A stretch of DNA of 64,000 nt from Paragorgia papillata. Its lineage: Eukaryota > Cnidaria > Anthozoa > Scleralcyonacea > Coralliidae. The notes below the pieces were generated by a model. It had not been told where the DNA came from, did not search any database, and was given only the letters and a program-made list of their open reading frames with translations. Both the position numbers and the translations under genes were made by a program. The number at the start of each line of letters is the position of its first letter. The stretch's first letter is position 1. This document shows, one piece after another, positions 29,926 through 57,752 of the stretch. The stretch is from positions 821,001-885,000 of the forward strand of contig JAWNZC010000232.1 of the NCBI GenBank assembly GCA_035771165.1, given 5' to 3'.

Positions 29926-30166
29926 CTATCACCACATCTGATTGGTCGAGATAACGTTGGATGTTTTAGGTATTCTGATTGGTGGAAACAAGGCGGGCGG
30001 CAGGCTAGCTCGCGGGTATCTGTTTATAGGCTCAAATTATATTAAATAAGTGATACCTGAGAATTGCCGGCTGTTAAAAACAACTTCAAAATGAATAAAA
30101 AGCTGGCGAAACACCCGTTAAAACGTCGGAAGAATATGTAATGATGGGTCGTGTCATCTCTGTGCC

Positions 30167-30402
30167 TACCCTGGATGCCAGAGGTTCTTGGGGGAAAGAT
30201 GGGGGAAGGAAGGGGAAAGGGAGGGGGGAAAGGGGGAAGGGAGGAGGAAAAGGGGGGAGGGGAGGGAAAGAGAGGGGGAAAGGGAGAAGGGAGGGGAAGA
30301 AGGGGGGAAGGGAGGGAAAGAGAGGGAAGAGAGGGGAAAGGGAAGGAAAAGGGAGAGAAAGAACCTGGGGTGGCACGGTTTGCGAATCTCACTTCCATGT
30401 TT
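30167..30402 (+). repeat. left TIR with purine tract
   Basis: The outer 25 bp match the right end exactly. An almost pure G/A tract of about 170 bp follows. The inner conserved block TTGCGAATCTCACTTCCATG also matches the right TIR. GCCAGAGGTTCTT near the outside and AAGAACCT near 30360 are inverted, so the purine tract could form the loop of a hairpin. Confidence 0.85.
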
Positions 30403-30550
30403 AGATTCTGGGTGCAGAAATTGAACTAGGCACATGATTGGTCAGTTATAATTAGCAGTGATTGAAGCGATATGATTGGTTAAGCAAAGAAAACCGGTTT
30501 TGGTAGAGCTTTTTACAGTTTTAGGTCAAAACGCAAAAACGACAGAGAAA

Positions 30551-33500
30551 ATGGGAGAGATATTTACCGAAGCAGTTTCTGCAACTCTAAAAGCACTTTT
30601 TCCGAGGATAGGAAGCTTAAAACAACAGCAAGAAGAAGCCATTTTTCAATTTATACAGAGGAGAGATGTGTTTGCCGTGTTGCCTACTGGTTGGGTGAAG
30701 TCGTTGAATTTTGAAGTTGTTCCAACGTTGTGCTCGTACTTACACAACAAAGGTTTGCCTTACCCAGATAAAGCTATCGTTCTCGTCGTATGCCCGCTAA
30801 ATTCCCTTGTGGCTTCACACATAAAGGAACTTGATAGTTTGGGAATCAGATCATGTTCGCTTTCAGGAGAAAACGTTGATGAAAATGGCCTATATTCTGG
30901 ACACTATTCCTTCGTTTTCACAAGTCCGGAAGCCATAATCAATGAAGAAAAATGGCGAAAGATGTTACGAAGTGATATCTATCAAAGAAATCTTTTCGGC
31001 CTGGTTACTGACGAAGCTCATGTTGTGCCTAAATGGTAAGTACTTCAGTGATTGTATACTGAATGTGATTTTTGTGATTATACAAACAGAAAACAGAAAA
31101 CAAATGCGTTACGAGTTGCAAACTTTAATCCAACGACGTGTCGATAAATAATATTGAGTAAACTAGAAAAAGGGAAGCGCTTGTAATTCTCTTTTTAACT
31201 GAACAGATATAAAAAAAGATGATAAAACAGAGGATAGGGAGCAAAGTTTGGGTTAGCCATTAGATTGTCAGAAAGGACAAAGCCAAAGGGTTTTGCCATG
31301 TTACACGTAATTATTTCTCCCGTGCATCTAGTAGAAATTTGTTATCTAGCTAGGTATCTCGTTAAAATCAAACACATTTTGATTATTTAATAGTAAAATG
31401 AAAAGGCAAGGAGATAAGGGATGAACCATTATTTTTCTTATAAATTATTAGTAGGTTGCTCTGCGGGATTGCGTTTGGACATGATAATTAATTTCCAAAC
31501 TAGCAAATTGGTACAAAAAATGTTACCCTTTCTCCTGTTCCCTTTACCAATCCCTCATAGGCAATCTTATATATTTCTCTCATATCTCTTAATAAGCATA
31601 GCGGCAGACGAAGCATAGCGGTAGAGCGGAGAGCCGCTATGCTTATCACACAAGGGCCTCTGGCATCCTGCAGGGTTCAAAAATGTCCAAGACAAGTACA
31701 AATATGTTCCTTAGGCCTTAGGCTTACATTTCCCCCCCCGAGGCAAACCAGTGCCGAAGCGAACATCACAGGTTAGCACACTATTAATACCACTGATTAA
31801 TGCTCAGTTTCAGACTTGTTGTCTTGCACTAGTTTAGATTATAATCAATCAAGCAATTAAAATGTTGCGACTAGAATTCATTTTCCTTAAGTTAGGGAGT
31901 GGTCATTTATTTGGGGGGGGGGGGGGGGGGGGGGGGGGCAAATGGGGGGGGTAAAGAAAGTTTTACTCTTCTATATTGGGGAGGGGGTCAATTTTGCTTT
32001 TAATACTGAACTATTGAATCAAGGTGTTGACTTGTGTTGATTGGGGGAAGGGTGGGTGGGTGGGGGGTGGGGGTGTTTGTTAGAAAAGCTTCAAGTGATA
32101 TTTGTGGGGTGGGGAGTTTGATTTGACCCTTGAAGGGGGTCAGAAAAGTTTTTAACCCCTATTTTCCCCAATTACCAACCCCCACCCCGCCCCACAAATA
32201 ATACCACTCCCTCATAGACTGTGCAATTGTTTAATTTTTGTATATCCATTCAATTAGAAATAACCTCAACCTCTGTGATACTTTTAACAATAAACATGAT
32301 ATTTTTATTGTGTTGTAGGGGTCAAGTGAACATCAAAGAAAGAAGAGCAGCTTTTCGTGAGTGTTTTGGACACCTTGGTGATATCCGGTCTCTTCTACCA
32401 TCCAACTCTCCTCTGTTGGCTTTAACTTGCAACTGCAACAGAAGAAGTAAGGAACAGAACAACTAAAGCTCTTGCTTTGAAAGCTGACGTCGTTCATATT
32501 CGTGTGTCTCCTAATAGAGCAAACATCTATCTTTACAAGTTAAATGTTGGAAGTGACTTATCTTGTTTTAGATGGTTACTGGATACTCTAATAGAAAAGA
32601 ACCAAGATACACCCAAAACCATCATCTATTGCAGAAGACAAAAGGATTGTGGCCAGCTATTTTGCCATTTCCTGCATGAACTTGGTGATGGTGCATATTT
32701 GCCATCTGCTGCTAAAATATCTGTAAACTGTTTGCTTGGTATGTACCATGCAAACACCTTAAATAAACACCAGAAACGTGTTATTAATGAACTCCTAAAG
32801 GAAGGTGGAGTCCTGAGGGTTGTTTTTGCCACCACAGCCCTTGGCATGGGTATCAACATTCCAAATGTCAGATATGTCATACATTATGGACCCCCCAGGG
32901 AGGTTGATGATTTCATGCAGGAGATTGGAAGAGGGGGCAGAGACGGTGAGGAAACAAATGCGTTAATGTTTTACAATGGTGTACAGCTTCGTAATTGTGA
33001 TAAAGCAATGAAATCTTATGTAAAAAGTGAAAATATGTGTCTCAGACAAATCATCTTAAATCAGTTTGAGGAAACAAATGTACCGAATCAAGGAACCCAT
33101 AAATGTTGTATGGTGTGCCATAAATTGTGCAAATGTGAAGGTGAAACATGTGCCATCCCACTTTTGTCTTTTCAGACATCAAAACCACCTAATAGTACTG
33201 AGGTAAATGAACAGCCAAAAAAACGAACAGTAAGTTTTCAGGAGAAGGAGTTACTTAAAGAACTACTAACAGATTACCAAAAAATGTTAGCTAGTAAGTG
33301 TCCATCATATTATTTATCATCTTAATCATGTACTGGTTTTACAGATGCAGTTATTTCATCAACTGTTAAGAAATGTAAATTTATTTTCACACTCAACGAT
33401 ATTGTAAAGCACGTCCCAGTATACACAAGGTCGCATGCAGTAGAGATATTATTAATATTAAATGACATATTTGATGATATTGATATAAGTACAGAACTTC

Positions 33501-33658
33501 AAGATGAATGTACACAACTAACATTACCTGAAATGTTGGATTATGATCTTGAATATGGTGGAGATGACTATTCCGATAGCTCTTTTGAATCTGGTTGTAG
33601 TGATTCAGATACAACTGTGACATCAGTGCTTTCAGGGATTAATGACCTACATGTATGA
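30551..33658 (+). pseudogene. RecQ-like helicase gene, three exons, inactivated
   Basis: Exon 1 (30551-31035) encodes the N-terminal RecA lobe, with VFAVLPTGWVKS where Walker A should be and a DEAH motif II. The donor is TG|GTAAGT. Exon 2 (32319-33293, after TTGTTGTAG) encodes motif III and lobe 2, with TIIYCRRQKDCGQLF, VVFATTALGMGINIP and EIGRGGRDG (motif VI arginine finger), then a Cys-rich RecQ zinc-binding-like region (CLRQIILNQFE, CCMVCHKLCKC). Exon 3 (33345-33658, after TTTTACAG) adds an acidic tail and a TGA stop. The Walker A glycine before Lys is Val, and one extra base near 32427 shifts the frame just after motif III. The fold is clearly helicase, but this copy should be catalytically dead. 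Start chosen at MGEIFTEAV; 30476 is an in-frame alternative. Confidence 0.8.
31036..32318 (+). other. helicase intron 1 with G-rich insert
   Basis: This 1.28-kb intron has GT and AG ends. A poly-G run (about 31913-31938) and surrounding G- and C-rich patches between 31895 and 32215 are inverted relative to each other (GAGTGGTCATTTATTTGGGG against the complement near 32190-32215), so a nonautonomous element sits in the intron. Confidence 0.55.
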
Positions 33659-33774
33659 TAAAAAATTAAAAATGTAATACTCTTGTTGTGAATCATCCAA
33701 TAAAGGATTAATAGACTTTAACTTACTTTAATATATTCCAGTTTCTTTGGAATGAATTATAATTATATGAAAAT

Positions 33775-33938
33775 AGTATAAGCAGGGGCGTAGCGTGTGG
33801 GTGTGTGTGTTGTGCGGGGTGGGGGGGGGTAGGGATGTGTGACCCCCCACCCACACACACACACAATTTGGTAATTGAGGAAGCGAAATAGAGGTACACC
33901 CCCCACTCAGAATTTTTCTGTTCGCCACTGAGTATAAG
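33775..33938. mobile_element. 148-bp hAT-like MITE with 8-bp TSD
   Basis: The element 33783-33930 begins CAGGGGCGTAGCG and ends TTCGCCACTG. AGTATAAG flanks it on both sides (33775-33782 and 33931-33938). It inserted in the gap between the two convergent genes of the 10.8-kb transposon. Confidence 0.8.
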
Positions 33939-36900
33939 AATGTTTGCATATTTATTAAAATATTGTTCTGTACCTGTTTGGCTGTTCCAGCTTATGAAGT
34001 TGTTTTTTGTGAGAAGTTATCCAGTCATTCAACTGTCTGAAATTAAGTTTGGATAGGATGTTACTTGAAATACTAGGAAAGTGTTGGTATTTTCTGCCAG
34101 GACTGGATTTGAAGATTTTTCAGTAGTCCCTTAGTAAGGTTATTTAAATGTTCCAGCCTCAAATCCAGAGATATGTTCCTTCCATTACCACCTCTTGAGT
34201 TGACAGTCCTGTTCCATGTCAAACAGTGTGCCTGTCTTGAGGTCAGCATTGCCTTTACTCCAGCTTGTAGCAAAAGACTTGCCAATGCATACTTAGTATG
34301 ATTATATGCCTTAAATATCAATAGGGAAAATTTCCAACAGCAAAGTATTCTCTCTCCATCACCCTCTTTTACAGCATCGTGAAAGTTGGCAATGAATAAT
34401 CCAAAACTGAGTCTGGAACATGCATAGTTAAACCTGTGAATTACATAAAAATTACTATTTAAGTTGTCCATAAAAAAACATGAATACAAATTTATTGAGC
34501 CATGTGACAATGAAAAAACTACGTTTCTTGGTTAATTTCTACTGTACCTTTCATCAACATTCTTGTGTTCAGACTCATGAGTATTCTGATTCTCTGTATT
34601 CTCTAATTGTAAGACAACGCCGTGTTTCTTAATTTCATGATTATCTCTAGCTTTAGCATATTTGTAGGGCTTTTGACAGATTCTGCACTGAATCGGTTGT
34701 GGATTTGGTGGATTTGGTGGATTACTAGCTGTCTGGATGGCAGATTGTATTTCCTCGTGGACAGATTGTTGCTCTTTCATCACAAATTTTTCTAACATGG
34801 CTTTAATGTGTCTGTTCAACCAAATCCTTTTCTGCTGAGTATTTGCATTGAGTATATCTGGAGGAACAAATGATTATGTAGGAACATTGATATCATTCAT
34901 TCCAAAGTACTTCATCATGGCAGCAACAACAAAGGCATCAGTTTCCATTGTCACATATTCCTTGCAGCTGTTTAAGTTGTCCAATACATTAGTAGTCTTT
35001 GCATTGGTACAGGAGATAATGTTCATATTAGAGCAGATTGTACCACTATCACCAGCCGATGACATTTTAAAGAAAATGTCATAAAGAATCTGAAAACAAA
35101 ATTTAGTGTAAGTTATAATAATTATAATAATTGAAAACATTCAGGTAATAAATAATCTCTCAATTAAACGTCATGCTGGGAGTGGTTCAACAAGCTTGCT
35201 GCAATTTAATTATCCATGGCAACAGTAAAATTCAAAATGGAAGCCTATTTGGTAAATTACAGTTTTTTTAAATGAATCTTTATTATTAGCATTAAGGGTG
35301 GAAGATGTTTTACTGTATACTGGCCCTCCAATATACAGTCGTTGGAATGATAAAAAGTGCATTCCCCCCAGCAAATTTTAGGCCTTTTTTAGCCCATTCT
35401 CAAAGATATTGAGGGTGGGGGGGAGCTTAGCCCTTTCTTAGAAATATTGGGGGTCCAGTGGCCCCTAGCCCCCCCCCCCCCCATCCATGAATATACTTGT
35501 AATAAAGGAGTGAAAGATATCAAAACATGACTGGCATTCATACAAGCAAATGAATAGCATTTTAATATTATATAAAGACAATAAGGTGAGTACATGTAAA
35601 CTTGTATCAAATAATATTAACCATTAATCTGGTTGTCAGCGGTCAATGTAATAAATCTTTGCATGGGAAATGAATTGGTTTATAATTATATACGAAGGAG
35701 CTATGCAGTCAATACTTTACCTGATACAAAATGCGAATGAAGTGGGTCATCACCATCACTTCAAGCAATAGCAGCATTTCTAGACCCTTCTTCTGTCAAC
35801 TGATCCCCTCCGAAATATACTTTCTCAAGTATTTCTTTAATTTCAACATCACCTTTTTTGTAACTGCGTATGGGAACATACTTGTCATGCAGGTGTTGAA
35901 GGATGTCTATCATTTCTTCATTCTTGTTTTTATTTTTGAAAAGCAAACCAAGGGAATTCTGAAAATAGAAAATATTCACTTTAAATATATGTTATAATTC
36001 TATACCTGCTATTTTAAGAGGGATTGTGATCACGTGACCTCTTACTGCAAGTTGCCTATTGTTTAGTTAACTCAAATATGGCTGTTATTATACATCGAAA
36101 CAGCAGTCAAATAATATGTTGTTTCTAAAAGCATGTACCGGTACTGGTAAATAAGGCAAATGGGTCAACACGGTACAATGGTAAATGACCCATTTGCCTT
36201 GTTTGCATATCAAACCTCTAATAATTATCTGTAACAAGAGCTATTCCTGTATATGCTCCTCCCCCTTAATCCTTTGGACCTTGCAATGGCAATGTACACA
36301 AGTAATGTACCAGAATACTGGTACATGTACTGTACATGTAAATGATTGAACGTTTTGTTTTATACCTGATCTGATTTTGTTCCCATAACTGATGAATAGC
36401 GATGTAGAATGTGCCATACAACTGCTTTTTTGAACACATGTTGAAGTGCTGGAATTCTTGAGACAACAATCCTAGACACAAGTGGAATGAGATTGTGCAG
36501 GAGATCTTGATTATCCTTTGGTGAAGGAAGAAAATCAATGTTCTCCATCTCGCATATGGACTTAATTGGCTTGTCGTTTGGATATTCATGTCCACTGACA
36601 CGATCAAGAATGCCATTTAAATTAAACCAGTGTACAGAATCATTTTGTTTGGTAGAGGACATGTGTTTTGCTTTCACGAGGAAGTCCACATTGTCTCCAA
36701 TGATTTGATAACCCGGTACATCTACATGTGCATAATGAATAGCAGGCAATTTTTCATCAAACATGTTCTCCTCAAATTTTTCACCCAATTTAGCATTCAC
36801 ACGTCTTTTAAGTTCAGTCTTAATATCCGTTGATAATGTATCTTCATTTATTGTGTGGGGAATAGATGCACATTCTACGTCAGGCATATCTACATCAAGA

Positions 36901-37478
36901 GAACCAGCTATTATGGCTTCTTCTTGCTCTCTTTTCATTGCTACAATCTCTTCTTTAATAGAAGAAATGTGCGAATCCAACTTGCATCCATACTCTTTGT
37001 TCTTTTTCCACTGCAGAACATCCTCATTGAAGTTTTCACCAAACTTGTCAATCATCTTCAGAGTTTGTCTATGACTCATGCATAATCCAAATCGACTTCC
37101 ACGAGTGTATAACTAAAAAGGATTAACAACATGTTTATATGGGTAACGTGAGGTTTTAACTTAGTTTATACAGTTAACTTATGAAGATTCTGACTAACAT
37201 GTCTTTTTTTTGGAATAGATTTGGGCAAGCCAACTTTGCATACATTTATGTATAATTTGCAATTCATCAGTATAACGATTAATACATAACAAACCACAAA
37301 TTATTTTAAACAAAGTGATGGCTTCAGCTTTATTTGAAATATGTTAATTATCTAGCTGACAAAAACCTAGGTTGAACATCAGTATCATATTAGTCAGTCA
37401 GATTAATTATGTTCACCCTTGCTCAACCTTATGTCATCACATAATATTGATAGAGCTGAGTGAACCAAAATATTTGTA

Positions 37479-37907
37479 AGGGCCTGTAACGTTATACAAG
37501 GAGGTGGGTGACCCTAGTACCCAGGTTACCCTAGCACTCGGGTTACCCTAGCTCTTGTATATTTCTTATTTTTTTGTTTATCGTGTTTTATACAAGGACA
37601 CTAACCCGGGTGCTGAGGGTCACCCTATCACACCACTAGCTGGCTGGTTACCCTAGTAGCTGGGTTATGTTTGGTCCTTGTAAACGTGTTTGGTAGGGAT
37701 AACTAACCTACCCAGGACAACTTTTTGCTAGTTCCAGGCTTCTTGCCATCTATTATTAGTGCTTCCGGTCTAATAAAGTTGACCCGGGCAGCAGGGTGAC
37801 CCTACTTGTGAAATTTTCTTTGTATAAACCAAGGCTATATTTGACCCGGGTGCTAGGGTAACCTGGGTGCTAAGGTAACCCTACCTCCTTGTAAACAGGC
37901 CCTGACA
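37479..37907. repeat. MITE-like foldback in intron 2
   Basis: The ends read AGGGCCTGTAACG and the complement of AGGGCCTGTTTACAAGGAGG. The interior repeats GGTTACCCTAGC and related motifs in both orientations. It lies in the intron between exons 2 and 3 of the DUF6589-type gene and its right end touches the splice donor region of exon 2. Confidence 0.65.
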
Positions 37908-38970
37908 TACCTGCTTTTCAGCTCTTCCATGCCAGAATAATATTGAGATTTTGTAACTCATTGCTGAAATCGTTGGATTTCTGTTCCTCAGCATCAATGA
38001 TGTGGCAACACTTGCAGCCCAAGAAAAAGATATCTCTTTTCTCTTGTCCGTTTCATTTGCAATTGTTTCTCCTTTGGCTTTGTTACCCTTGTTGCAGTGT
38101 CGTCTGTCTACATTTGCTGCAGCTCTCAAACATTTATAAAATGTTGTGGCTTTAGTTGAGATCTCATATTCCATACTTTTAGATGTCAGATTCACAATGT
38201 TATCGGGAGTTCTATCACTGAAGATAGATGGTGTTTTTAATGAACATAAGTTCTTAAACTCTGACTTGATTTCTTGTTCAAAAAATGTAAATGCCACTGC
38301 TTTCATCTCTGCGGTGACCAACATAGCTCTTACTGCATACCCATACTCTCCAGTGGCAATATTTCTTACAACATTGGCATCATTGCCTTCAATAACCTTT
38401 CTTACCAACTTGGAAGGGTACTGTATATTAACCTACAATGAATTTAAATTTGAAAAAATTGTTACAAAATCGCAGCATTTCATAATTTATACCCTGGATC
38501 TCATCTTGTTCATTCGTCGTTTGATTTATAAAAACATAACAGTGTCGTTCACGCTTTGAACAACCAAACTTAAAATTTTGTCTGCTGCATGAATAGAGAG
38601 AGTCATCCGACTACCCGAGGGGCAAATCACTCCTGAAAAAGTGTAGCCAAAAATCATGCGATTTTTTCATGATTTTTTCATTTTTCTCATGATTTTTTAT
38701 TTTTTTGTGATTTCTTTGTGATTTTTCTGAAGGTGTACGTGATTTAAATCAGTGAATTGCCCCTCGACTAAAAACAAATAAAACCCATATAAAAAATTAA
38801 ATTTTTAAGCTTACTTGCACTGTCGATTTCGTAGATGGAAAGTCAATTACATCGTCTTGAAAACACCCCAAGAATGGATCAGCGTCTGGGTTTTCTTCAG
38901 TCGTTGTTCTAGTTTCATTAATTGTGGAAGAAGGTGCAATCACCAACGTCGAAGACATAGCAGATGCCCG

Positions 38971-40286
38971 GGCTGCAGGGGCGGATCTAGACGAAAATGT
39001 GACTGTTGCAAATTAGTGACGATACCATTCTAGGGGGGTCCGGCGGCATGTTCCCCCGGAATTTTTTGAAATTTCAAACCCCAGAAACGGCATTTCCCGC
39101 ATTTTGAGTGAAGATTCCAGCTAATTCTGCAGCAGGCGCAATTCAAATTTCACACAAGAATAAAGGGCCAAATACGACAATATTTGTTAATATTGGATTT
39201 ATATTAAAAATCTACCAATAAAAACTGTTGACAACAATATCTGTTTGTGTAAAATATGATTGTTTGATAATATATTAATTGATCAACATACCTAGTACTC
39301 GTCTATTAGTTCTACGCAAGCAGCACGTTGACTGCAACGTTAAAGATTAACGTTTATTAAATAAATATAATACTGTATCTTACTCACTACATATGTGACT
39401 GAGAATGAATTCGCGTTCAATCATATAAATACACACAAAGGCTGATCTCAGTCATAATTTGCATATTTTATTATTCAAATAATAACCCAGGCAATTTATT
39501 ATTCATGAGCTTCACATACCTCACTGCGTTGTGCTTTGAAGAGCGCAATTCTTAGCTGCGCGGGAACTGCAACTTCGAATAGTTAATACACAAACATACA
39601 CGGCGAGGATCATCCTTCTTTATTTCAAATTCGCTCTTAAGACATTTCTCACAGTAACGCTTAAGAGCAATCAACTCATCCTCCTTTTCCTTAGGAGAAT
39701 AACTCATATCATCCAAGACGCGCAACAGTTGCTATAAAACGTTGTTGGACGCAATGGTGAACAGTAGCCAAGGGAACGAACGAGTAATTACATCACATCA
39801 TAGTCTAATCATCGGAGATTTCTTCGCTCTAGTGAACTGTAGCGGAAGTTCATGAAATGCAGCAAAACGTGACCTAAATCTGGCGTGTTGATTGGTTTGC
39901 TACAGTCAACAACTGTAGCGGCTACAGTACAAATTTACCACAACTGTAGCCGTCGTAACACATCGCCACCACCTCGGAATGCGCCTTTGCGCGAGGCATT
40001 CTAGTGAGAGAAACATGAGCTGACAATGCAGTTCAGATCAATTACGGGCAGGCTCAATGGGCACAGCATGTTGCATGTTTGTAGGTTGTGCGCCCGGCCA
40101 TAATTTATATAACACGCGCATGAATGCCTGAAATGGGGGTTTTGAACTTTGGAAAAGCTGAATATTAGTGACATATTATGCAGATGGTGTTAATTTAATG
40201 TTAATTTAATTTAATCATATTTTTTCGGGAAAATCTGACTGTAGCATTCGCTACAGTTGCTACAGTCTAGATCCGCCCCTGGGCTG
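38971..40286. mobile_element. hAT-like element inserted in exon 1, 5-bp TSD
   Basis: The element 38976-40281 has TIRs CAGGGGCGGATCTAGAC, perfect at both ends. GGCTG lies on each side (38971-38975 and 40282-40286). A 5-bp duplication would fit the hAT5 group. The interior (about 1.3 kb) has no transposase. It interrupts the coding frame of the ZAD exon, so it inserted after the host transposon's gene was formed. Confidence 0.75.
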
Positions 40287-40843
40287 GCTCGTTAGAAGTT
40301 GGGAAAAGGACCTTGACATTGTTCCTTGTACGTCGCACTTGCTGCTTTGGAGGCTTTTCTGCGCTAAGAGGAGATCCCTTATGACAACGCTTGAATCGCG
40401 ACATTTCCCGTCTGTTACTCTGTGACGAGCAAGTATTATCATACAAAGTTTTAAATGTCGGTACCTCTTTCGTTATGAGTTCTATTGCCTTTTCCAATCT
40501 CTCCATTTTCTGAAAGCAGTTAATACAGATAATAGAAGAGCATAATTCGTCTTGTTGTAGTTGGCATTCTAGTATGCTGGAGAGGCGTTCAACTAATCGA
40601 GCCTTCTTAGCTTTTTCACCATTGAATATGTTGTAATTACCCATTCTTGTTTTGGAAACATTTGCATCGCATATTATACAAAAATGGTTGCAATTATATA
40701 CATACTTTCGGGGAGTTTTGTTGGCCATTTCAATGCTCGAAGACAAAATGAGCCATTCTGACAAACGGAAGTGAGTGAGTTGACAGGTAAAAGTGACGTC
40801 ATAAAGTCAAAACCTGTTGTTTACAAGTTCTGTGCCAAGGTAC

Positions 40844-40972
40844 AAACATGGAAGTGAGATTCGCAAGCCGTGGCGCCAGAGGTTCTTCCCTCCTTTCCCC
40901 CATCTTTCCCCCTTTTTTCTCTCCCTTCCCTCTTTTCCTCCCTTCCACCAAGAACCTCTGGCATCCAGGGTA
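40844..40972 (-). repeat. right TIR with purine tract
   Basis: This is the inverted counterpart of the left TIR, shorter because its purine tract (pyrimidine on the plus strand) is only about 65 bp. AAGAACCTCTGGC at the outer end and GCCAGAGGTTCTT at its inner border form a 13-bp inverted repeat around the tract. The inner block CATGGAAGTGAGATTCGC matches the left TIR. Confidence 0.85.
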
Positions 40973-40981
40973 CTCTGTGCC

Positions 40982-43751: not shown

Positions 43752-43905
43752 AGTAGTAGTAATATGAGGTTTCTAGCTCATTTTTCAAAACATTATCAAA
43801 AACCCTATTTAACACTTTCATTATAGCATGTCTAATATTTTACCAACAGAATATTAGACACCACCCCCACCCAGCCCAATTATTAATACTCACGCAGCGG
43901 TTAAC
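43752..43905 (+). repeat. Polinton left TIR (154 bp)
   Basis: It matches 61048-61201 in reverse with one difference (CCCAGCCC against CCCAACCC). The last four codons and stop of PolB (43890-43905) lie inside it. Confidence 0.95.
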
Positions 43906-46898
43906 CTACAATGACCAATAGCCAGTGTACTTATCCCATCAGCCCCAATTATTCTTTTGTCATCATTAGCCGAAAGAGCGATCTTATCAATGTGCTCTGT
44001 GTAAATCTCATGCTGACGGGATCTGAACGTATTCATTCCTTTCAAAATATCTTTTTGGGTGAACAGACAATCCTTATAATCCTGGAATGTAATCTCATTC
44101 TTAACCACTCCTTTTTTGACTCCCTTACATTTCTTGACTTCGTCTTCACTGTCGACTGCATCTCCACTTCGTTCGTCCAATTTGTAAGCGTACAACTTAC
44201 TCCTTAATCCAACAAATTCTAAAATTTGTTTTCTTCCCGCCTCATCCTTCATCATACCAATAACTTTCTTGTTAACTCCGGTTTGAATACCACTACTATG
44301 GTTATCCGGAAAGTTGCTGGTGTCGAACTTGGTTGCAACATCCTTGGAGATGTCCTTGTAAAAGTCATCGGTTTTAATTTCGTGGCACAATGAATCCGTA
44401 TCCGTAAACAGCAAACTCGCCTTCTTTCCATACTTAGGTTTAATGTACTCATAATGAAAGTCGTACATAAGAGTTTTACTGACATCTAAAATACTCATTC
44501 CCAAGTAGATGGGTTTGTTAAGTTTTACCGTTGTTTTCTGCATATGAACTGCAACTAAGTTTTCTGTAAATATGTTAACTCCATTAAAGTTGGTTTTTTT
44601 AGCTAATTTTTCTAACTGGTTTTCATTGGTGACAAGTCGGACATCCACCCTATTTCTTACGTTTTCCATAGTTTTACCGAATACCGAGTTGTTCATTAAT
44701 TTAAAGAAATCCTTTTCGAAGTTGGATGTAGCCATAGTTCTTAAATCTGTGTTAAGTTTTATGTATTCCTTTAACCAGGGCTCCTCCACAAATGTAATGC
44801 CCCGGTGAATTTTAGTTAATTTTAATCCTAGTTTTAAACATTGCTTTAATGCTTTGTGGTGAATAACGTACTTTTCCTTGTTATACAAATTGGGGATAAG
44901 TTTTTCTACTTTGTTCACTGTTACCCGTTCGGCAGCTAATGGATACTCATTATGTAATTCGTGTAGACTTTCTGGGTATGTTATGTCTACCTCCAAAATG
45001 CACGGATATTTTTCCCAAATCTCTAGTTCCGCTTCGCTCATCCACTTAAAGTCTCTTACCGGCAACGGTTCAGACATTGCCCAACCATACAGGTTGTTAG
45101 CATCCAAATATATAATGTAAACACCTTCGTTATTAGGATCGTACTCTATTAAGTACTTGTTGTTAGCCTTGGCGTATCTTTTCATGATGGTGCTAATCCC
45201 ACCTCGAATTCCCTTTTCCACCATTAGGTACATATCTGGATCTGTTAGTAAATCCAGTTTTACCCCAGTTAGTTTAAGATCGGCATCCCAAGCCAAACCT
45301 GGCGAGGTGTAGTACCACAACGGATCTAATCCATAGTTTTGTTTACACACCGCCCTAAAACTTTCCATTACGTCTGCAAGTAACAAAACATCTGTTTTTA
45401 AATACAAATTATAGTAATCCCTCATGGTTTTACAACCAAAACTTCTCCAAACATTTTGAGCATGCTTGTAATCTGCTTTGCTGATGTCGGTGTTGTTCAA
45501 CTTAGAGTAGAACTCAGATTTGGCTGGTAAACTAGGATGACTTAACTTATCGAAACCGGACATAAATTCATAGGGGAATACACCCTTTTTCTTTAAAAGA
45601 TTAACTTGTTCGTTAGTGTATTCACTGAATCCTTGTTCTACAGTTTTAAACTGGTTTGGTTTTAAGTTTTTGACCAATGAGTCTAATGAACTTAATGTAA
45701 ACTTTAGGGAATCTAAAAATCTTAACTCACACTTAATTTCCCAGGGTTTTCCTTTTTTGTTGGTCCCAGATTCCATTACCACTTTTTTACTAAAACTAAT
45801 GTATTTTTCATCAGTTTTAGGGATACAGTCTATTTTTCCTTCCGAAAGACCTAAACTTTTAATGAACAGATGGGAGTCATACCCCTCTAAATTATGAAAC
45901 AAAACTGGGATGAAAGTAGGTTTCTTCATTTTCAGGTTGCATTGGTTGTGTGCCGCTCCACGAAACTTTCCTGTTAGATGGCAATGGTCTCTTATCCGAT
46001 CGGTTCCCAACTCTTTTTTACAGGTATAACAATTTGTGGCTGCTTGGAAAGCGTCTTCCTCCTCCATGCTCATTTTAATGGGTTCGTTAATCTTAGTTAT
46101 TTCATATATTTCCTTCATCTCCTTTTCCACGGATTCTACGAATTTTTTACCAATATCCTCTCCTTCATTTTCCATTGTGTAAAGCACAGTTTTAGGTTTG
46201 TAAATTTTGTCATCTATACATTTAACGGTATAGCAAAACCCACTTGGTTGATGTTGTTGATAGGCAGTTGTATGGCTTTCGTCGTCATTCTTTTGCACCG
46301 TGTCAATAGGTAGAATGAATGACTCAAAGTCGGCGTAAATAACGAATGGAACATCGGTTGTTTTTTGGTGTTGTTTAAAGAACACTTTTGAGTTTTCCTT
46401 TGGATATTCCTGTTTTTGTGCGGTATGCATGTTACAAATTTCTTTGTGGTTGATTAGCTTTTCCTCGCTACCAAAGCTGTTAAGACAGCGGATGCAAATA
46501 TGTTTAGGGTTTTTGTGTTTACTAAGTTGTTTACCAATAAGTCTACTTAACCTTTTTACCACACTGTAGTGGTTGTCAAAGAAGAACAGCGTTATACTGT
46601 TTTCGTTGTTGTTTTTACTAATTTTAAGGGGGAAAACCATTTTGGTTTCGTTATCAAAACTAAGAACATTAATGTTTATATTGTTTTTGTTTTCAAATTT
46701 TGGGATGTCCTTAATTTCTGTTGGAAACTTTGTTTCCTCCCAGTTAAGTTTCTCGGATTGCAGTTTTAAGGTTTTGGTTATTCTTTCTTCGTTGTTTTCA
46801 ACAGGATTTAAAGCTCTTGTTACCGCCCACTTAAAACAGAGGTCATCATTCTTTTTGATGTTGATGATGGCTTTTTTTTTTGATGGGATGCGAGGGAT
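43890..46898 (-). pseudogene. polB: protein-primed DNA polymerase B (main part)
   Basis: The frame is open from 46898 to the stop at 43890; from Met at 46640 it is 916 aa. Seen in that numbering: a zinc finger (C49, C52, H65, C69), exonuclease motif I (D104, E106), an HNH-like C-x2-C/HCH cluster (C204-C234), exo II (D255) and exo III (Y413, D417). The polymerase motifs are A (D513, NLYGW), B (KLMNNSVFGK at 647-656) and C (D747-T-D749). All catalytic residues are present. Codons upstream of 46640 include CFKWAVTRALNPV, which belongs to the protein, so 46640 is not the true start. The N-terminal region is in another frame (46820-47770), and no AATAAA start motif precedes 46640. It would replicate the element from a terminal protein. 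Broken by frameshift, otherwise well preserved. Confidence 0.9.
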
Positions 46899-47770
46899 TC
46901 AAGCATTTTTTGTTTCATGTGTTCGTACTCCGTTTTTGCTTCATTTTCTGATATCATGGAGTGCGTGAAACTTCTGAAGTGAGCAGTTGTTATTTCTACT
47001 TCATCGGGTATTAAGTCATGTTTTTTAAGTTTACAGGTGAGTACCGTAATGACTTTTTTCCCAACACTATCGGTTTCGTTAATTAAGTTTAACACAACCC
47101 GGGTTGTGTTTTCCAAGAAAACACTTGGATTTTTAATTCCGCTTCCAGGGATTACCCATCTGGCGGCTCTTCCACTTATTGCGTCCGAAACGAGGGTGGC
47201 GTATATGTTGTTCATGTTTTGTGTTTTCATTTTTTTGCTGTGAACACTCCACAACTTTTTACTAAGTTTTTCACGGATGTTTCCTAACTTTTTTGATCCT
47301 TTCCATTTTTGACCCTCTTTAAGGTTAAATTGCCGTTTGCTTTCTTGTTTAATTTCCTTTGTCCACTTGATTGTTTCCTTGTTTTGTTGTTTTTTGTATT
47401 CTTTGAATTCTTGTTTTAGTCTTTTTTCTGTTAGTTTTTGTTGACGTTTGGTTTCTTGTTTAATTTCTGCATTCCATTTACGAGTTTCCTTGTTTTGTTG
47501 TTTTTTGGATTCTTTGAATTCTTGTTTTTTCCAGGCTTTTAAATCTTTTTCCAACTGTTTGTCCAAAACTTTTTGGAGTTGTTTTTCTTGACGTATGCTT
47601 TGCTTTTGTTCCCGTTGTTGTTTCTTTTCTTGTTCTTTAAGTTTCTTTTCTTGCTTCCGTTGTTGTTTCTTTTCTTGTTGTTGTTGCTGCTGTAGTTTGT
47701 TCTTCTCTTCTTGTTTTTCCTGACGAATTTGAATTTTACGCAAATAATTATTTAAATTTGAGTTCCACAT
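46820..47770 (-). pseudogene. PolB N-terminal region (separate frame, coiled-coil rich)
   Basis: The 316-codon frame starts MWNSNLNNYLRK, preceded by ACTAATAAAAGAGAAGA, the element's start motif. Residues 1 to about 170 are a Gln/Lys/Glu-rich coiled coil; about 190-290 is a folded part (AARWVIPGSGIKNP, ITVLTCKLKKHDLIP, EAKTEYEHMKQKMLESL). It overlaps the PolB frame and runs into a T10 tract at 46872-46881 (A10 in the sense strand). I infer that it is the natural N-terminus of PolB, detached by a frameshift and probably a small deletion near that tract. The residual possibility is a genuine separate gene for a terminal or accessory protein. Confidence 0.65.
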
Positions 47771-47839
47771 TCTTCTCTTTTATTAGTACAATTCTGCATA
47801 GATGAAGTAAACAATTTTTGAAGATTTTACGAGAAAAAA

Positions 47840-47865
47840 ATTCATATTTTAAAAAAAATATGAAT
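47840..47865 (-). terminator. hairpin after the 115-aa gene
   Basis: ATTCATATTTT and its complement form an 11-bp stem with a 4-nt loop, immediately after the stop of the gene ending at 47872. The same stem sequence follows the gene ending at 55105. Confidence 0.6.
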
Positions 47866-47871
47866 TCATGT

Positions 47872-48219
47872 TTATGGTTGGTCTTTAGGAGCTAAACGTT
47901 TAATTGTATAACCTCTTACGGTTGCTCCTCTTTTTTCATGGAATGGTATACAACTTGGGTTAATACAAAGATGTTTTGCAGCTTTGTAAATACTTGTGAA
48001 TGTCAGCTCTTCTTTATTGTTTGTTAGTATAATACCAACTGGTTTTTTAATTTTGTCTCTGTTGCACTGATCGTATGTTTTGTTGGCGGTAAATGGGAGA
48101 TTAAGTAATTCACACAGTTTTTCTTTGTTGTGTTTTGAGGTGTACTTAATACCTTGTTCCCTTCCTTTTTGACGAAGTTGTCTAAGCGTAAAAGTTGTGT
48201 TTAAATTAATGTTATTCAT
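47872..48219 (-). CDS. small DNA-binding-like protein (SAP-like plus NUMOD1-like)
   Basis: A 115-aa protein. Residues about 10-45 (TLRQLRQKGREQGIKYTSKH) look like a SAP/LEM-type helix-turn-helix. Residues about 72-110 (FTSIYKAAKHLCINPSCI then GYTIKRL) have the AAK-x-L-x-I and G-Y-x-I/V pattern of NUMOD1 DNA-binding modules. NUMOD1 is normally an accessory of homing endonucleases, but no nuclease domain is visible here. The start has ACTAATAAAAGAGTACT directly upstream, and a hairpin follows the stop. Domain calls are by eye. Confidence 0.6.
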   Translation of the reverse strand: MNNINLNTTFTLRQLRQKGREQGIKYTSKHNKEKLCELLNLPFTANKTYDQCNRDKIKKPVGIILTNNKEELTFTSIYKAAKHLCINPSCIPFHEKRGATVRGYTIKRLAPKDQP

Positions 48220-48248
48220 AGTACTCTTTTATTAGTGTATTTTTATGT

Positions 48249-48264
48249 TTCACAACTGTGAAAA
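48249..48264 (-). terminator. short hairpin after the 84-aa gene
   Basis: TTTCACA and TGTGAAA form a 7-bp stem just downstream of the stop at 48286. It is weaker than the other hairpins. Confidence 0.4.
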
Positions 48265-48285
48265 AACGCTCTTTTTTGCAAAATT

Positions 48286-48540
48286 TTACCAACCAAACGG
48301 TATTTCGCTAATTCCATCTTCGATGTTTTCACCATAGATTTTAGCTATAGTGTGTTTAAACTCTTCTCTTATGGTTTGTATTTGTTTTGTTTGTTCCTCT
48401 TCACTTAGGTCTCCTCCCTTAATGATATTAATTAGGTTGTTTTTTACAAAATGTGTGGATTTGATATGTTTGCGGATTACATTAAAATGAGAGTCATTCC
48501 GTTCGCGTTTAATATTCATTTCATTACCAAAAATAATCAT
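48286..48540 (-). CDS. hypothetical 84-aa protein
   Basis: I do not recognise it. The start MIIFGNEMN at 48540 is chosen because TATAATAAAGAAATAAC lies just upstream; a longer frame to 48612 would overlap the divergent gene. The protein is polar, with a helical middle (HFNVIRKHIKSTHFVKNNLINIIKG) and an acidic, EE-rich end. It is transcribed away from the gene at 48586, sharing a 45-bp intergenic region that has an AATAAA on each strand. Confidence 0.5.
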   Translation of the reverse strand: MIIFGNEMNIKRERNDSHFNVIRKHIKSTHFVKNNLINIIKGGDLSEEEQTKQIQTIREEFKHTIAKIYGENIEDGISEIPFGW

Positions 48541-48585
48541 TGTTATTTCTTTATTATATACTATTTTTCCGTAAATAAAATACAA

Positions 48586-49082
48586 ATGCGCGAAATTTTC
48601 AACTTTAACCACATTTCAAAGGATTTACCTAAGGAGCAAATGGAAAGATTTAAAAGTACATTTGCGTTCTATCATAGATTATCAAAATGTTATGGTAAAA
48701 TGTTTAGATTAGCAAGACGGAGAGATTTTGTTCTAATGTTTTTAAAGGTTGGTTTGTTAACCGGCGGCGCGGGGGCACTGTGTTGGGTTGTATTACACTT
48801 AATCCGTTTATTTTAGGTGCCATGTCTGGTGGTGGTTTGTTGTTAGCTGCTTACATGAGGAAGGTTAATCTTTCAAAACAAAAGGATAGACACAAATTTG
48901 CACAAAAAAATTACAAAAAAATTTTAGACAAACTTCGTGAGTTTATGAGAGGGGTTCACTTTGATCAGGCTCAGTTTGATGGTGAGTTGATGATGATTGA
49001 TGACTTGGTTCGGGAGTTGTGTGCTGAGATTCCAGACTCGGTTGATAGGTGGTATAACCAGGAATACAAGTGTAATTCTTAA
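48586..49082 (+). pseudogene. two-TM Polinton membrane protein, frameshifted
   Basis: The first frame (48586-48816) starts MREIFNFNHISKDLP and reaches a hydrophobic helix (LMFLKVGLLTGGAGAL). The second frame (48780-49082) continues with a second hydrophobic segment (NPFILGAMSGGGLLLAAY) and a helical, charged C-terminal domain ending YNQEYKCNS. The two frames overlap in a G-rich stretch (GCGGGGGCACTG, about 48768-48779) where loss of a single base would explain the change. Only the first frame has the AATAAA start motif (GTAAATAAAATACAAATG). I recall similar two-helix proteins from other Polintons but have no named function. Could be a sequencing error. Confidence 0.6.
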
Positions 49083-49218
49083 CTGTTTTGTTTGTCCATC
49101 CTATTTGAACGTTTCCCTCCATTGTAAGTGAATCTTTTCCAAAACTGATGCCAAACTGAAACCCTTTTCGGGTGTTATGGTTTTTGTTTAATTTGGTTTT
49201 ACTTTTTGAGTTTCCCAT
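48943..49218 (-). CDS. possible small myristoylated protein
   Basis: A 91-aa frame starting MGNSKSKTKLNKNH; Gly2 and Ser near position 4 fit an N-myristoylation signal. AATAAA abuts the ATG, as at the element's other genes, which favours reality. Against it, the last half overlaps the opposite-strand membrane protein gene and is low-complexity (Ser/Thr/Pro/His). The start is inside a perfect 25-bp palindrome that also contains the ATG of a short plus-strand frame. Confidence 0.45.
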   Translation of the reverse strand: MGNSKSKTKLNKNHNTRKGFQFGISFGKDSLTMEGNVQIGWTNKTVKNYTCIPGYTTYQPSLESQHTTPEPSHQSSSTHHQTEPDQSEPLS

Positions 49219-49323
49219 TTTATTAAAATGGGAAAGTCCAACTTACGGGTGAAAAAAGTTCACCAAACGCGAAAAAACTATGTTTTTTTTTTTCACGATA
49301 ACAAGTGTTTAATTAGTATTAAT

Positions 49324-49869
49324 TCAAGCGTTATTGGAATTAGCAGTATCGCCACTACACTCGCCTGTACTAACGTCTTTATCAACATGTACTTCATTTT
49401 TATTTGTACACTCACCGCGTTCGGTTTCATTCTCACCACGTTCAAACCATACGTGTTTGGCAACTATTAATCCTCCTGATAGTAAACCAATCATGGGAAT
49501 GTATGGTGACACCTTTGCAACCATTTGTTTTACGTCATCATACAAAAGTTTGTTGTCTGATAACTCCTTTGCAAGTTTTCCATTTGAACCAACCATGTTA
49601 AGTTGCTCCAATAATCCTGAAAATTTTGTTATTAAACTTTCCGTTAGCTGGCTGTTAACGTGCTCCATTTGTTCCATTTGATAGTCGTGTTTAATTTTTT
49701 CCAACGCACTTTGCGATGCCTTTTTTATATATTTTTCTGAATGTTTAATTTGTTTTGCCGCCGACAAGCGGATGAGCTCATCTCTAAGGTTGTTATTTTG
49801 CGGAACATCGCAAAAACTTTGCGGGCTAGATGGGAATTGTAAATCTTCGGTTTGTTCGTTTGTATTCAT
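49324..49869 (-). CDS. Polinton protein with coiled coil and one TM helix
   Basis: A 181-aa protein. Residues 1-30 are polar. Residues about 35-115 are helical and probably coiled coil (KYIKKASQSALEKIKHDYQ). One TM segment lies at about 122-140 (YIPMIGLLSGGLIVAKHV). The C-terminal tail is acidic and Cys-containing. The start is ACTAATAAATG with the motif overlapping the ATG. No family function is known to me; likely a virion or membrane component by analogy with similar Polinton genes. Confidence 0.65.
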   Translation of the reverse strand: MNTNEQTEDLQFPSSPQSFCDVPQNNNLRDELIRLSAAKQIKHSEKYIKKASQSALEKIKHDYQMEQMEHVNSQLTESLITKFSGLLEQLNMVGSNGKLAKELSDNKLLYDDVKQMVAKVSPYIPMIGLLSGGLIVAKHVWFERGENETERGECTNKNEVHVDKDVSTGECSGDTANSNNA

Positions 49870-49893
49870 TTATTAGTGTAGAATAAGGACTTA

Positions 49894-50463
49894 CTAGATG
49901 TATTTTCTTATTGTTTTACGATTTTTGTACAATATATATCCAAGTGCAATGGCTAGTGTCCAAAAACTTTTGGATAACCAGGCGATTCCCTTTGCACCCC
50001 ACGTTAGCGCAGTTATAAGAACATTTACCAAAGGAACCAATATTGGCGCTGTAGCCTTTGCTAGTTTTGCAACCGCCTTTGCAACTTTACCTGTTGCTCC
50101 CGCCGCTGCAGCCAGACCTTTTCTGCCAGCTATAACAACTGTGGTTATAATTCCAGCTATGGAAATAGCTATAGCTGACAACATACCTAAGTTGTTTTTA
50201 GCAAACTTTTTAAACTTTTCAAATTTTGTGAGATCGTCCTCTCCAATCATTTCGTTAAGTTTTTCACTAACAGGTTTTAGGTTTTGTTTTAATCTAAGTT
50301 CATCAGCTTTTAGTTTTGCAACATCTGAGATGTTTTTGTAAACAACTTTTTTACGTCCATCTACTTCAGCTTCCGCCTTATCATTCCAATATTTCTCAGC
50401 AATTTCAACTGCATCCAAATTTTCTATATCGTTAACCGCTAATATTCCTCCAAGCTCTCTCAT
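49894..50463 (-). CDS. Polinton membrane protein (possible 3' part of the upstream gene)
   Basis: The 189-codon frame has a soluble N-terminal part and two hydrophobic regions (about 91-113, LSAIAISIAGIITTVVIAG; about 139-180, with a glycine/alanine-rich linker between). It ends in a basic tail (KNRKTIRKYI). The frame is open about 36 codons upstream of its first Met, back to the 3' end of the 50547-51149 gene, and its ATG lacks the AATAAA start motif. I infer that it is the second half of that gene, displaced by a frameshift, or is read by frameshifting. An independent gene remains possible. Confidence 0.55.
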   Translation of the reverse strand: MRELGGILAVNDIENLDAVEIAEKYWNDKAEAEVDGRKKVVYKNISDVAKLKADELRLKQNLKPVSEKLNEMIGEDDLTKFEKFKKFAKNNLGMLSAIAISIAGIITTVVIAGRKGLAAAAGATGKVAKAVAKLAKATAPILVPLVNVLITALTWGAKGIAWLSKSFWTLAIALGYILYKNRKTIRKYI

Positions 50464-50546
50464 TTCCTCATTGGTGAGTTGTGTTCTGTCAAGCGTGTCT
50501 GTGTTTATAGCTATTTCATCTTGTAATCTATCTATAACGTTAGCTC

Positions 50547-51149
50547 TTATCCGTTTACGCTTGGTGTTCCTGGGAGATTACCAACTATTTCCTCTATGGT
50601 GTTGTTTGCTGTTAAACTATGTTCTTGTTCCGCCTGGTTTAATAGGTTTTTATATTCTTCAACAACACCTTTAATTTTTTCATTACTACTTAGAAAAAAC
50701 TCCTTTCCTTTTTGCACAACAACTTTAACGTCTTTGTATAAAATTCCGTTCATCTTTCCAGTTTTTCCGCTTATTGAAATTTTACTTTTTTCCACCAACT
50801 TTTTTGACATTGGTCCATCCTTCATTACCACTTCCTGCTTTAAATTTTCGCGAAGTAATAACTTTCTGTTTTTTGTAATTTTTCTTTTTTCTGCGATTTC
50901 CCACCGTTTTCGCACCGCTTCTTTGTTTATTTCCTCTCCTTCCCGTTCCGCAACTTCTTTGTATCTGTTGATCCATCTGTTTTCGCTATCTTGATCAAAA
51001 TCCAACTCAATGTTTGGATTATCGTAATTATCATCATCAAGATCATCTTCGTAGTCATATTCATCTATAAAACTTGTTTCTTCTTCTTGAGCTTCTCGCT
51101 CTTCAAAGTTGTCAAATTTATCAAATGTTTCAAATTCAAATCCTTCCAT
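50547..51149 (-). CDS. acidic Polinton protein (possible 5' part of a split gene)
   Basis: A 200-aa protein starting MEGFEFETFDKFD. The start is chosen at 51149 because TTTTGGTAAATAAAATG precedes it exactly as for the integrase; a Met four codons upstream is less likely. The first 60 residues are strongly acidic (EEREAQEEETSFIDEYDYED), followed by a basic helical middle and a Glu/Asn-rich end. No recognised domain. It runs directly into the open frame of the 49894-50463 membrane protein. Confidence 0.6.
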   Translation of the reverse strand: MEGFEFETFDKFDNFEEREAQEEETSFIDEYDYEDDLDDDNYDNPNIELDFDQDSENRWINRYKEVAEREGEEINKEAVRKRWEIAEKRKITKNRKLLLRENLKQEVVMKDGPMSKKLVEKSKISISGKTGKMNGILYKDVKVVVQKGKEFFLSSNEKIKGVVEEYKNLLNQAEQEHSLTANNTIEEIVGNLPGTPSVNG

Positions 51150-51214
51150 TTTATTTACCAAAATAACACAACAAAAACATTATATTATTTCTTTTAATCA
51201 CTATAATAAAGAGA

Positions 51215-51730
51215 ATGTCTTATTATTGTTTTTACGAATGTGAACACATCCCAAATGAATTAAGATGCTGTACTGAGTGTGGTGAACCCTTACCAGATTC
51301 CTATTATGACGATGACATCTGTTTGCATAAAAAAACAGCTGTTTTAAGTGGTGAAGAGATTTGTATTAAGTGTGGTGAAGTGATTAACCAAGTTTTTAAA
51401 CAAGGTAGTAATTTTAACCATGTTATGAAAAGAAAAAGTAAAAAGGTGAAGCCAAATGTTGAGAAAATTTCAAAAAGAACAAAACGTTTTATTAATGTGT
51501 TGAACACACTGTTCCCAGATTTTGTTATTCCATCGAATATGTTTGACTTATTCCACCGCATTGAGTCTTCTTTTAACCTTTTTGCAAAGGTTGGCGAGCT
51601 GTTTCCGAATATGAGAATTGTGGTTTTTTACGTACTTAAGGAATGTGGTTTTCCTGATTTGACCAAATTAGTGCCATTACCAAAATCTAAAAAGAGTTTT
51701 AAACAGTTAGAAGAATTTCTTGGATACTAA
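51215..51730 (+). CDS. TFIIB-like tandem zinc-ribbon protein
   Basis: A 171-aa protein with two CHCC zinc-binding modules: C9/H11/C18/C22 (with extra Cys at 5 and 19) and C36/H38/C50/C53, each ending in C-x2-C-G-E. The second (SGEEICIKCGEVI) closely matches the TFIIB zinc-ribbon layout. The rest is helical (FINVLNTLFPDF, MFDLFHRIESSFNLF, RIVVFYVLKECGF), about the size of one cyclin repeat. I infer a transcription initiation factor acting on the element's own promoters. The fold assignment is by eye. The start has ATAATAAAGAGAATG. The 3' end overlaps the convergent 499-aa gene by 24 bp. Confidence 0.6.
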   Translation: MSYYCFYECEHIPNELRCCTECGEPLPDSYYDDDICLHKKTAVLSGEEICIKCGEVINQVFKQGSNFNHVMKRKSKKVKPNVEKISKRTKRFINVLNTLFPDFVIPSNMFDLFHRIESSFNLFAKVGELFPNMRIVVFYVLKECGFPDLTKLVPLPKSKKSFKQLEEFLGY

Positions 51731-53206: not shown

Positions 53207-53255
53207 TTTATTGGAGTGAAAGTTACGTTTGAAAACTATGTTTTTGGTAAATAAA

Positions 53256-54254
53256 ATGACAGAAGATGAAAAAACTTTACTCGATCTTGAGTTAAGAAAT
53301 TTATATTACAACCCGGTAACGGGCTATCAAAGTGCGGAGAAGCTCTATCAAAAGGCGGTTGAAGGAAATATTGAGGGAACAACAAGAAAGTTGGTTAAGG
53401 AGTGGCTGAGTTCACAAACTGTATACACAATACACAAACCGCTAAGAAAACCAGGTAAAACGCAACGCACCTTTGTTAAAAACTTAGCTGACCAGCTTCA
53501 AATGGACTTAGTTGATATGGCTAAACTTAGTTCAGAAAATGTGGATCGCGTTAGCGGAAAAAAGTATAACTGGATTTTAACCGGAGTTGAAATTTTAAGC
53601 AGATTTGCGTTTACCGTTCCAGTACATAGAAGAAACAAGGAAAGTATGGTTGTAGCTGTTGGGTTAATGTTGAAAGAATTTAAAAACCACTTTAAAAAAT
53701 ATCCAGATGTTGTGCAGTTTGATAATGGTAACGAGTTTTATAACGTTGGAGTGAGGTCGCTTCTTGGTTCTCACAACATTGACTATTTTTCTACACTGTC
53801 TACACGTAAAGCCGCTATTGTAGAGAGATTTAACAGAACATTAAAAACTAGAATGTGGAAATATTTCACATTTAAACAAACTAAAACTTGGGTCGGCGTT
53901 TTAAGCAAGTTTACAAAAAGTTATAATAACACAATACACTCAACCATCAAAAGAAAACCAAACAGTGTTAACATGGATAACCAGGATGAGGTGTTCTTAA
54001 CGCTGTACGGAATACCACCGGTAAAGTTTCCAAATCCTAAATTTAAGGTTGGTGGTTACGTTAGAATATTTAAATTTAAAAAAAACTTTTCTAAGGGTTA
54101 CGATCCAAATTTTACTAATGAAGTTTTTAAAGTTGCAGCTGTGTACCGTGGTAATCCAGTAATGTATAGTTTAGAGGATGAAGACGGAGAGGGTATAATA
54201 GGTAAGTTTTACAACGAAGAACTAGTTGGCGTTACACTTAACAACAAAAAGTAA
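53256..54254 (+). CDS. int: retrovirus-type DDE integrase
   Basis: A 332-aa protein, intact. The core has the DDE triad: D84 in QMDLVDM, D156 in QFDNGNEF and E190 in IVERFNRTLK, with 33 residues between the second D and E. The C-terminal part (VGGYVRIFKFKKNFSKGYDP) is a basic SH3/chromo-like DNA-binding region. No N-terminal HHCC finger is visible, but residues 1-70 are helical. It would insert the element with a 6-bp staggered cut, consistent with the GAGGTG TSD. The start at 53256 follows TTTTTGGTAAATAAAATG; Met codons at 53229 and 53238 lie before the motif and are rejected. The stop codon region is duplicated in the array that follows. Confidence 0.92.
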   Translation: MTEDEKTLLDLELRNLYYNPVTGYQSAEKLYQKAVEGNIEGTTRKLVKEWLSSQTVYTIHKPLRKPGKTQRTFVKNLADQLQMDLVDMAKLSSENVDRVSGKKYNWILTGVEILSRFAFTVPVHRRNKESMVVAVGLMLKEFKNHFKKYPDVVQFDNGNEFYNVGVRSLLGSHNIDYFSTLSTRKAAIVERFNRTLKTRMWKYFTFKQTKTWVGVLSKFTKSYNNTIHSTIKRKPNSVNMDNQDEVFLTLYGIPPVKFPNPKFKVGGYVRIFKFKKNFSKGYDPNFTNEVFKVAAVYRGNPVMYSLEDEDGEGIIGKFYNEELVGVTLNNKK

Positions 54255-54660: not shown

Positions 54661-54685
54661 AGCCTTATAACTTTTTCACTAATAA

Positions 54686-55105: not shown

Positions 55106-55117
55106 ACAAGTTTATAA

Positions 55118-55144
55118 AATTCATATTTTTTAAAAATATGAATT
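55118..55144 (+). terminator. hairpin after the 139-aa gene
   Basis: AATTCATATTTTT and its complement are separated by one base, a 13-bp perfect inverted repeat starting 13 bp after the stop. It matches the stem at 47840-47865. Confidence 0.65.
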
Positions 55145-55152
55145 CTTTTTTG

Positions 55153-57747: not shown

Positions 57748-57752
57748 AATTA

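Follow-up and report, generated by a model that had tools for sequence, protein, structure and literature searches.

A transposon of Paragorgia papillata encoding a RecQ-like helicase and a predicted DUF6589 transposase, most likely of the AcademH lineage

We analysed a 64-kb stretch of a Paragorgia papillata contig (JAWNZC010000232.1, positions 821,001 to 885,000; hereafter the window) and found in it a 10.8-kb DNA transposon (window positions 30167–40972) that most likely belongs to the published AcademH lineage and is likely moved by cut-and-paste by a predicted RNase H-fold transposase carrying DUF6589. The element is a new family, most likely within an already published group. This analysis adds a probable role as a DNA transposase for the Pfam family DUF6589, which is annotated without a function. 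It also adds the extent of DUF6589-RecQ pairing within a single genome, where the pairing recurs across divergent families, and the design of the element's ends.

The limits of the element are seen directly. It is bounded on either side by the 9-bp target-site duplication (TSD) CTCTGTGCC, which occurs twice in the whole 64 kb and was present in two copies in 0 of 100 shuffled sequences. Just inside the duplications, the terminal 23-mer TACCCTGGATGCCAGAGGTTCTT is exact and inverted at the two ends (0.00 occurrences expected by chance; Table 1), and the arms of the terminal inverted repeat (TIR) are 97% complementary over 30 bp. A sequence-only reading of the window had proposed a real transposon with exact limits, which the exact 9-bp TSD and 23-bp inverted ends bear out; of the 25-bp terminus that it described, 23 bp are exact. 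An Rfam scan gave no match at the gathering threshold.

Further insertions in the same genome (617.9 Mb searched) have the same structure. A 263-bp query from the left end gave 40 scored matches from 132 candidates, the window included, and the best 20 of the 39 others were fetched. In 26 of these 39 the match opens at query base 9 or 10, at the outer edge of the TIR, which places the duplication outside the element. Both ends lay within the fetched stretch in 16 of the 20 copies; the 15 with full flanks all have exact 9-bp TSDs that differ from one another, and in the last of the 16 (L028) two of the nine right-flank bases were in view, both matching. The remaining four stretches were extended. 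One of them (C408) proved to hold another full-length element, 10,340 bp long, with both genes and the exact TSD GTTCGTCCA; the other three (C268, C413, C414) have no right end within 11.5 kb. Exact 9-bp TSDs thus flank all 17 fully seen insertions (the window element, C408 and 15 short copies), and the search for further copies that the sequence-only reading had proposed yields at least 16 other insertions with such TSDs. A target motif was sought and rejected, as no base is fixed across the 17 TSDs and their middle is merely T-rich.

The 16 short copies lack the genes. Fifteen measure 1.65–1.67 kb: the left end contributes ~448 bp and the right end 184 bp, and between the two lies ~1.06 kb of different sequence. 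The remaining one, L016 (1195 bp), is the element with part of its interior simply deleted. The 15 differ by 0.3–1.33% from their majority sequence, which points to recent movement of the family. The ~1.06-kb middle (L012–L014, L017–L028) apparently replaced the interior of the element once and then spread. Gene-less copies carrying a known transposase had been named as an observation that would count against the element as described; gene-less copies exist, but this contrary case did not arise, as the middle of the one translated (L020) has no open frame longer than 67 aa. Neither the window nor the four long stretches contain a match to that middle.

The element carries two convergent genes, whose exon limits are our own reading, backed by relatives and known from sequence alone. 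The plus-strand gene encodes a RecQ-like helicase in three exons (GT-AG splice sites and translation read from the sequence), with Pfam matches to PF00270 (E 1.4e-9) and PF00271 (E 9.8e-18). One relative, P0005, reaches 190.8 bits against the NCBIfam RecQ family model, whose cut-off is 219.8, and in the PDB it matches chains of BLM, WRN and RecQ; helicase relatives outside the source genome occur in Exaiptasia, Paramuricea, Stylophora, Acropora and others. The minus-strand gene has at least six exons, running from 40728 down to ~33960 toward the helicase. Its DUF6589 exon matches PF20231 with E 2.3e-13 (50.1 bits against a gathering cut-off of 27), and a relative (P0121) scores 160 bits on the same profile. 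The gene had been described as of ZAD/DUF6589 type, of which the DUF6589 part lies above its cut-off and the N-terminal ZAD match (PF07776; E 0.0014, 19.3 bits against 28) only below; a C2H2 match in the gene is weak. Relatives of the DUF6589 protein outside the source genome were found in Porites, Stylophora, Clytia, Branchiostoma, Exaiptasia and others. No relatives turned up in the viral and prokaryote contigs searched.

The helicase and the DUF6589 gene are a unit that belongs to the element. A query with transposase exon 3 gave 149 genome matches (150 scored of 252 candidates), seven of them long and at least 93% identical, the window included, and a query with the main helicase exon gave 135 (135 scored of 449 candidates). 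A helicase match lies within 15 kb of 67 of the 149 transposase matches, a transposase match lies near 66 of the 135 helicase matches, and in 62 of the 67 pairs the two genes converge as they do in the window. Random helicase offsets of 50 kb to 1 Mb gave a mean of 1.4 neighbours and a maximum of 5 in 500 trials; this control is blind to contig limits, and it is somewhat low because some offsets fall off contigs. These convergent pairs, together with C408, confirm the claim of the sequence-only reading that the convergent pair belongs to the element, and the two genes are, as it had stated, the sole genes identified in the window copy. Decay, helicases that were not scored, or lineages without a helicase may account for the 82 transposase matches with no scored helicase neighbour. 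Occurrence of the genes mostly outside such ends had been named as a further contrary observation; of the 149 DUF6589 matches, about 140 fall below 90% identity and represent other families, and the ends covered are one end of one family.

The pairing extends to divergent families. In a family of ~53% identity on C50 and C48, a single duplicated or allelic 19-kb stretch, the convergent pair is kept; the helicase-side end is TACCCTGGGACAGAGG, and the other end and a TSD were looked for in this stretch and not found. Seventeen further places match at 28–30% identity (e.g. C29, C318, C12, C280) over the same query span, with a 192-aa frame; they are a distant DUF6589 family. For five of the 17 (C173, C193, C350, C87, C390), the helicase matches listed include one no more than 15 kb away. 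Outside the source genome, the listed contigs of P0003 and P0173 (Exaiptasia) are equal in size (212953), as are those of P0021 and P0142 (4698), which suggests that each pair lies on one contig.

Among known groups AcademH is the most likely home of the element because the literature gives it both a helicase and TSDs of matching length: passages of PMC10045372 assign TSDs of 9 or 10 bp to AcademH and of 3 or 4 bp to AcademX, tied to a helicase and a nuclease, respectively. The view of the sequence-only reading that the gene content fits no nameable cut-and-paste superfamily with 9-bp TSDs is therefore not upheld. A RecQ helicase in Academ is mentioned in passages of PMC3627910, and passages of PMC10799480 treat AcademH helicases in fungi. 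As far as these passages go, AcademH and the window element are alike in the helicase gene, in being a DNA transposon, in the TSD (9 bp, within 9–10 bp) and in animal hosts; a kinship of the DUF6589 protein with the Academ transposases would be expected on this reading. Named animals with relatives of the genes described here are Exaiptasia, Stylophora, Porites, Acropora, Clytia and Branchiostoma. AcademH elements have TIRs, and the AcademH paper, Kojima 2020 (Mob DNA 11:15), names animals and fungi in its title. The 13-mer pairs around a purine tract described below are the end design of the window family.

Alternatively, the DUF6589-RecQ elements could form a separate superfamily outside Academ that works as AcademH does with a transposase of different origin, which we consider unlikely. 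The nuclease of AcademX is of XPG type, and one locus in the genome (L033) holds an XPG/HIRAN element that we take to be AcademX-like. When the DUF6589 profile was compared by hhalign with the opposite-strand open reading frames (ORFs) of this element, the probability was 0.2%, at the level of two helicase controls, for one sequence in three exon pieces. The genome gave 52 XPG_I matches, perhaps including host genes, and none of them has a listed DUF6589 match at a distance of 15 kb or less; in the collection of papers searched, none contains the term DUF6589. These observations favour a separate origin; against it stand the single sequence and three exon pieces behind the XPG comparison, the presumptive AcademX identity of that element, and the combination of a helicase with 9–10-bp TSDs, which is the one reported for AcademH in the passages of PMC10045372. 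The same passages present AcademX as the sister lineage of AcademH, with a nuclease in place of the helicase and TSDs of 3–4 bp; membership in AcademX is ruled out by the 9-bp TSDs together with a scan of 10 ORF pieces that gave no match to XPG, and none is listed at the window locus. As a side observation, L033 (4111–9912) and L034 have at least 5.8 kb in common, with XPG_I and HIRAN on one strand and, on the opposite strand, ORFs that match no Pfam family.

The ends have the same layout in all 18 copies compared (window, C408 and the 16 short copies): from the outside, the 23-mer, a purine tract and an inverted 13-mer, GCCAGAGGTTCTT. The tract is 95–100% purine on one strand and spans 138–190 bp on the left and 51–62 bp on the right. 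On the left, the inverted 13-mer agrees at 12 bases out of 13 in every copy but the window (10/13); on the right, all 13 agree in every copy but L014 (12/13). Strict G-quadruplex motifs number 3–5 at the left end in 18/18 copies and are present at the right end in 0/18; the 53 kb of the window that flank the element hold five such motifs, and the element's interior holds four. Since the copies are closely related, this layout is the design of one family and not 18 independent cases. G-quadruplexes are a type of substrate that RecQ helicases unwind, and one could picture the DUF6589-RecQ elements as an independent superfamily that depends on its own helicase to open structured G-quadruplex/purine ends, a proposal that we rate as doubtful and slightly less probable than a separate superfamily as such. 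The purine and G-quadruplex end was rejected as a general feature of the lineage, as the ~53% family has a TACCCTGG end with no purine tract, the right ends of the window family lack strict G-quadruplex motifs, and the interior of the window element contains such motifs as well.

Assignment of the DUF6589 protein of this AcademH-like element as the transposase draws on a predicted structure. Its ten best fold matches are all DDE transposases, with hAT (Hermes) and the P element best, and the order of the conserved acidic residues, in the motifs GDN, GGDQLTEE and KEGDG (candidate D305, D466 and E709), is the one expected. DUF6589 is thus likely an RNase H-fold recombinase or DDE transposase, in line with its earlier designation as a candidate recombinase. 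Weighing on the other side, the match is moderate and an unrelated entry in the fold comparison scores level with Tn5. The transposase core folded alone gave a poor model with meaningless fold matches, and the absence of a family from the list of fold matches does not exclude that family. Sequence matches of DUF6589 to solved structures include no hAT or P element relative; hAT and P elements have 8-bp TSDs and are not known to carry a helicase gene. It is improbable that DUF6589 is instead an accessory or host-derived gene with the mobilising enzyme supplied elsewhere: its annotation as of unknown function and the moderate structural match would allow this, but no gene other than this pair was identified in the window copy, both recur in C408 (searched for these two), the pair recurs in the 62 convergent pairs, and the fold matches and acidic residues point to a DDE transposase.

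Two further classes of element that involve helicases have next to no probability here. A Helitron-like rolling-circle element driven by the encoded helicase is ruled out by the exact inverted ends and the TSDs in 17/17 fully seen copies, Helitrons not being known to have either TIRs or TSDs, and no HUH/Rep domain was found in the 10 ORF pieces scanned. KolobokH elements are DDE transposons carrying a RecQ helicase (passages of PMC9587614), as is predicted for the window element, but in those passages the Kolobok TSD is TTAA (4 bp), and the varied 9-bp TSDs found here in 17/17 cases rule out this assignment; moreover, the helicase here has a convergent gene to itself, and the relatives with a species name come from animals. 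Zisupton/KDZ elements likewise carry accessory genes, but their 8-bp TSDs (7 bp in Kyakuja) and TET/JBP genes in place of a helicase, as given in passages of PMC12730594, rule them out.

In the mechanism that we favour for the AcademH-like element, the DUF6589 protein would act as a DDE transposase, cutting the target with a 9-bp stagger and moving the element by cut-and-paste. The ZAD-like region, the C2H2 fingers and a helical N-terminal region may bind the ends, with the inverted 13-mers providing two recognition sites per end. The RecQ helicase might act by unwinding the ends or by resolving gap and strand intermediates, and the short gene-less copies would be moved in trans. A replication-coupled or repair-assisted mechanism, as suggested by the sequence-only reading, is likewise conjectural. 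Why a transposon carries its own RecQ helicase becomes testable, given the ends, a young non-autonomous substrate and the many partner copies now available.

Both genes of the window copy are broken, so this copy would need proteins from another copy to move. The helicase has a frameshift; in the transposase, exons 4 and 5 contain in-frame stops, exon 4 is missing the EDWH region that relatives keep, and a frameshift near 34110, close to the gene end, is read by eye. Exon 1 of the transposase is split by a nested element (Table 1), for which C408 provides the unoccupied site. Window and C408 are 98.8% identical over 4698 bp of exons and 97.8% over 4673 bp of non-exon sequence. In C408 the transposase exons, aligned to P0121, are free of stops and helicase exon 1 has an indel; the helicase exon of C414 has one stop.

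Table 1. Features of the transposon and its flanks, in window coordinates
Feature	Position	Strand	Remarks
Left target-site duplication CTCTGTGCC	30158..30166	.	sequence search of window
Left outer TIR, 23 bp	30167..30189	+	exact
Left homopurine spacer, 169 bp	30190..30358	+	99% A+G; 4 G-quadruplex motifs in the element's first 220 bp
Left inner inverted repeat	30359..30402	+	begins with decayed (10/13) inverted GCCAGAGGTTCTT 13-mer
Helicase exon 1	30551..31035	+	DEAD domain; Walker A unlike that of C408 copy
Helicase exon 2	32319..33293	+	Helicase_C; 1-bp frameshift near 32428, motif III
Helicase exon 3	33345..33658	+	
Transposase exon 6 and 3' end	33960..34433	-	DUF6589; candidate catalytic E at 34364-34366; 3' limit approximate
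Transposase exon 5	34548..35089	-	C2H2-like finger in insertion domain; in-frame TAA
Transposase exon 4	35721..35958	-	GGDQLTEE, candidate second D at 35803-35805; in-frame TGA, internal loss
Transposase exon 3	36366..37112	-	GDN, candidate first D at 36693-36695
Transposase exon 2	37911..38432	-	
Transposase exon 1, 3' part	38815..38973	-	
Nested inverted-repeat element CAGGGGCGGATCTAGAC	38976..40281	.	5-bp TSD GGCTG; splits transposase exon 1
Transposase exon 1, 5' part	40287..40728	-	ZAD-like zinc finger
Right inner inverted repeat	40844..40887	-	exact inverted 13-mer at 40875-40887
Right homopurine spacer, 62 bp	40888..40949	-	97%, purine on minus strand
Right outer TIR, 23 bp	40950..40972	-	exact
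Right target-site duplication CTCTGTGCC	40973..40981	.	sequence search of window

Helicase intron 1 holds a possible 154-bp non-autonomous insertion (31524..31677), a weak candidate seen by eye, with ACCCT ends and near-identical flanks of 9–10 bp; it contains GGATGCCAGAGG, which resembles the main terminus. Elsewhere in the window, inspection of the ORF list by eye suggests Polinton/Maverick-like ORFs at 43890–60240 (polymerase B-, integrase-, capsid- and packaging-ATPase-like) and, at 3531–4196 on the plus strand, an ORF with the look of a GIY-YIG-like endonuclease, perhaps a Penelope-like remnant.

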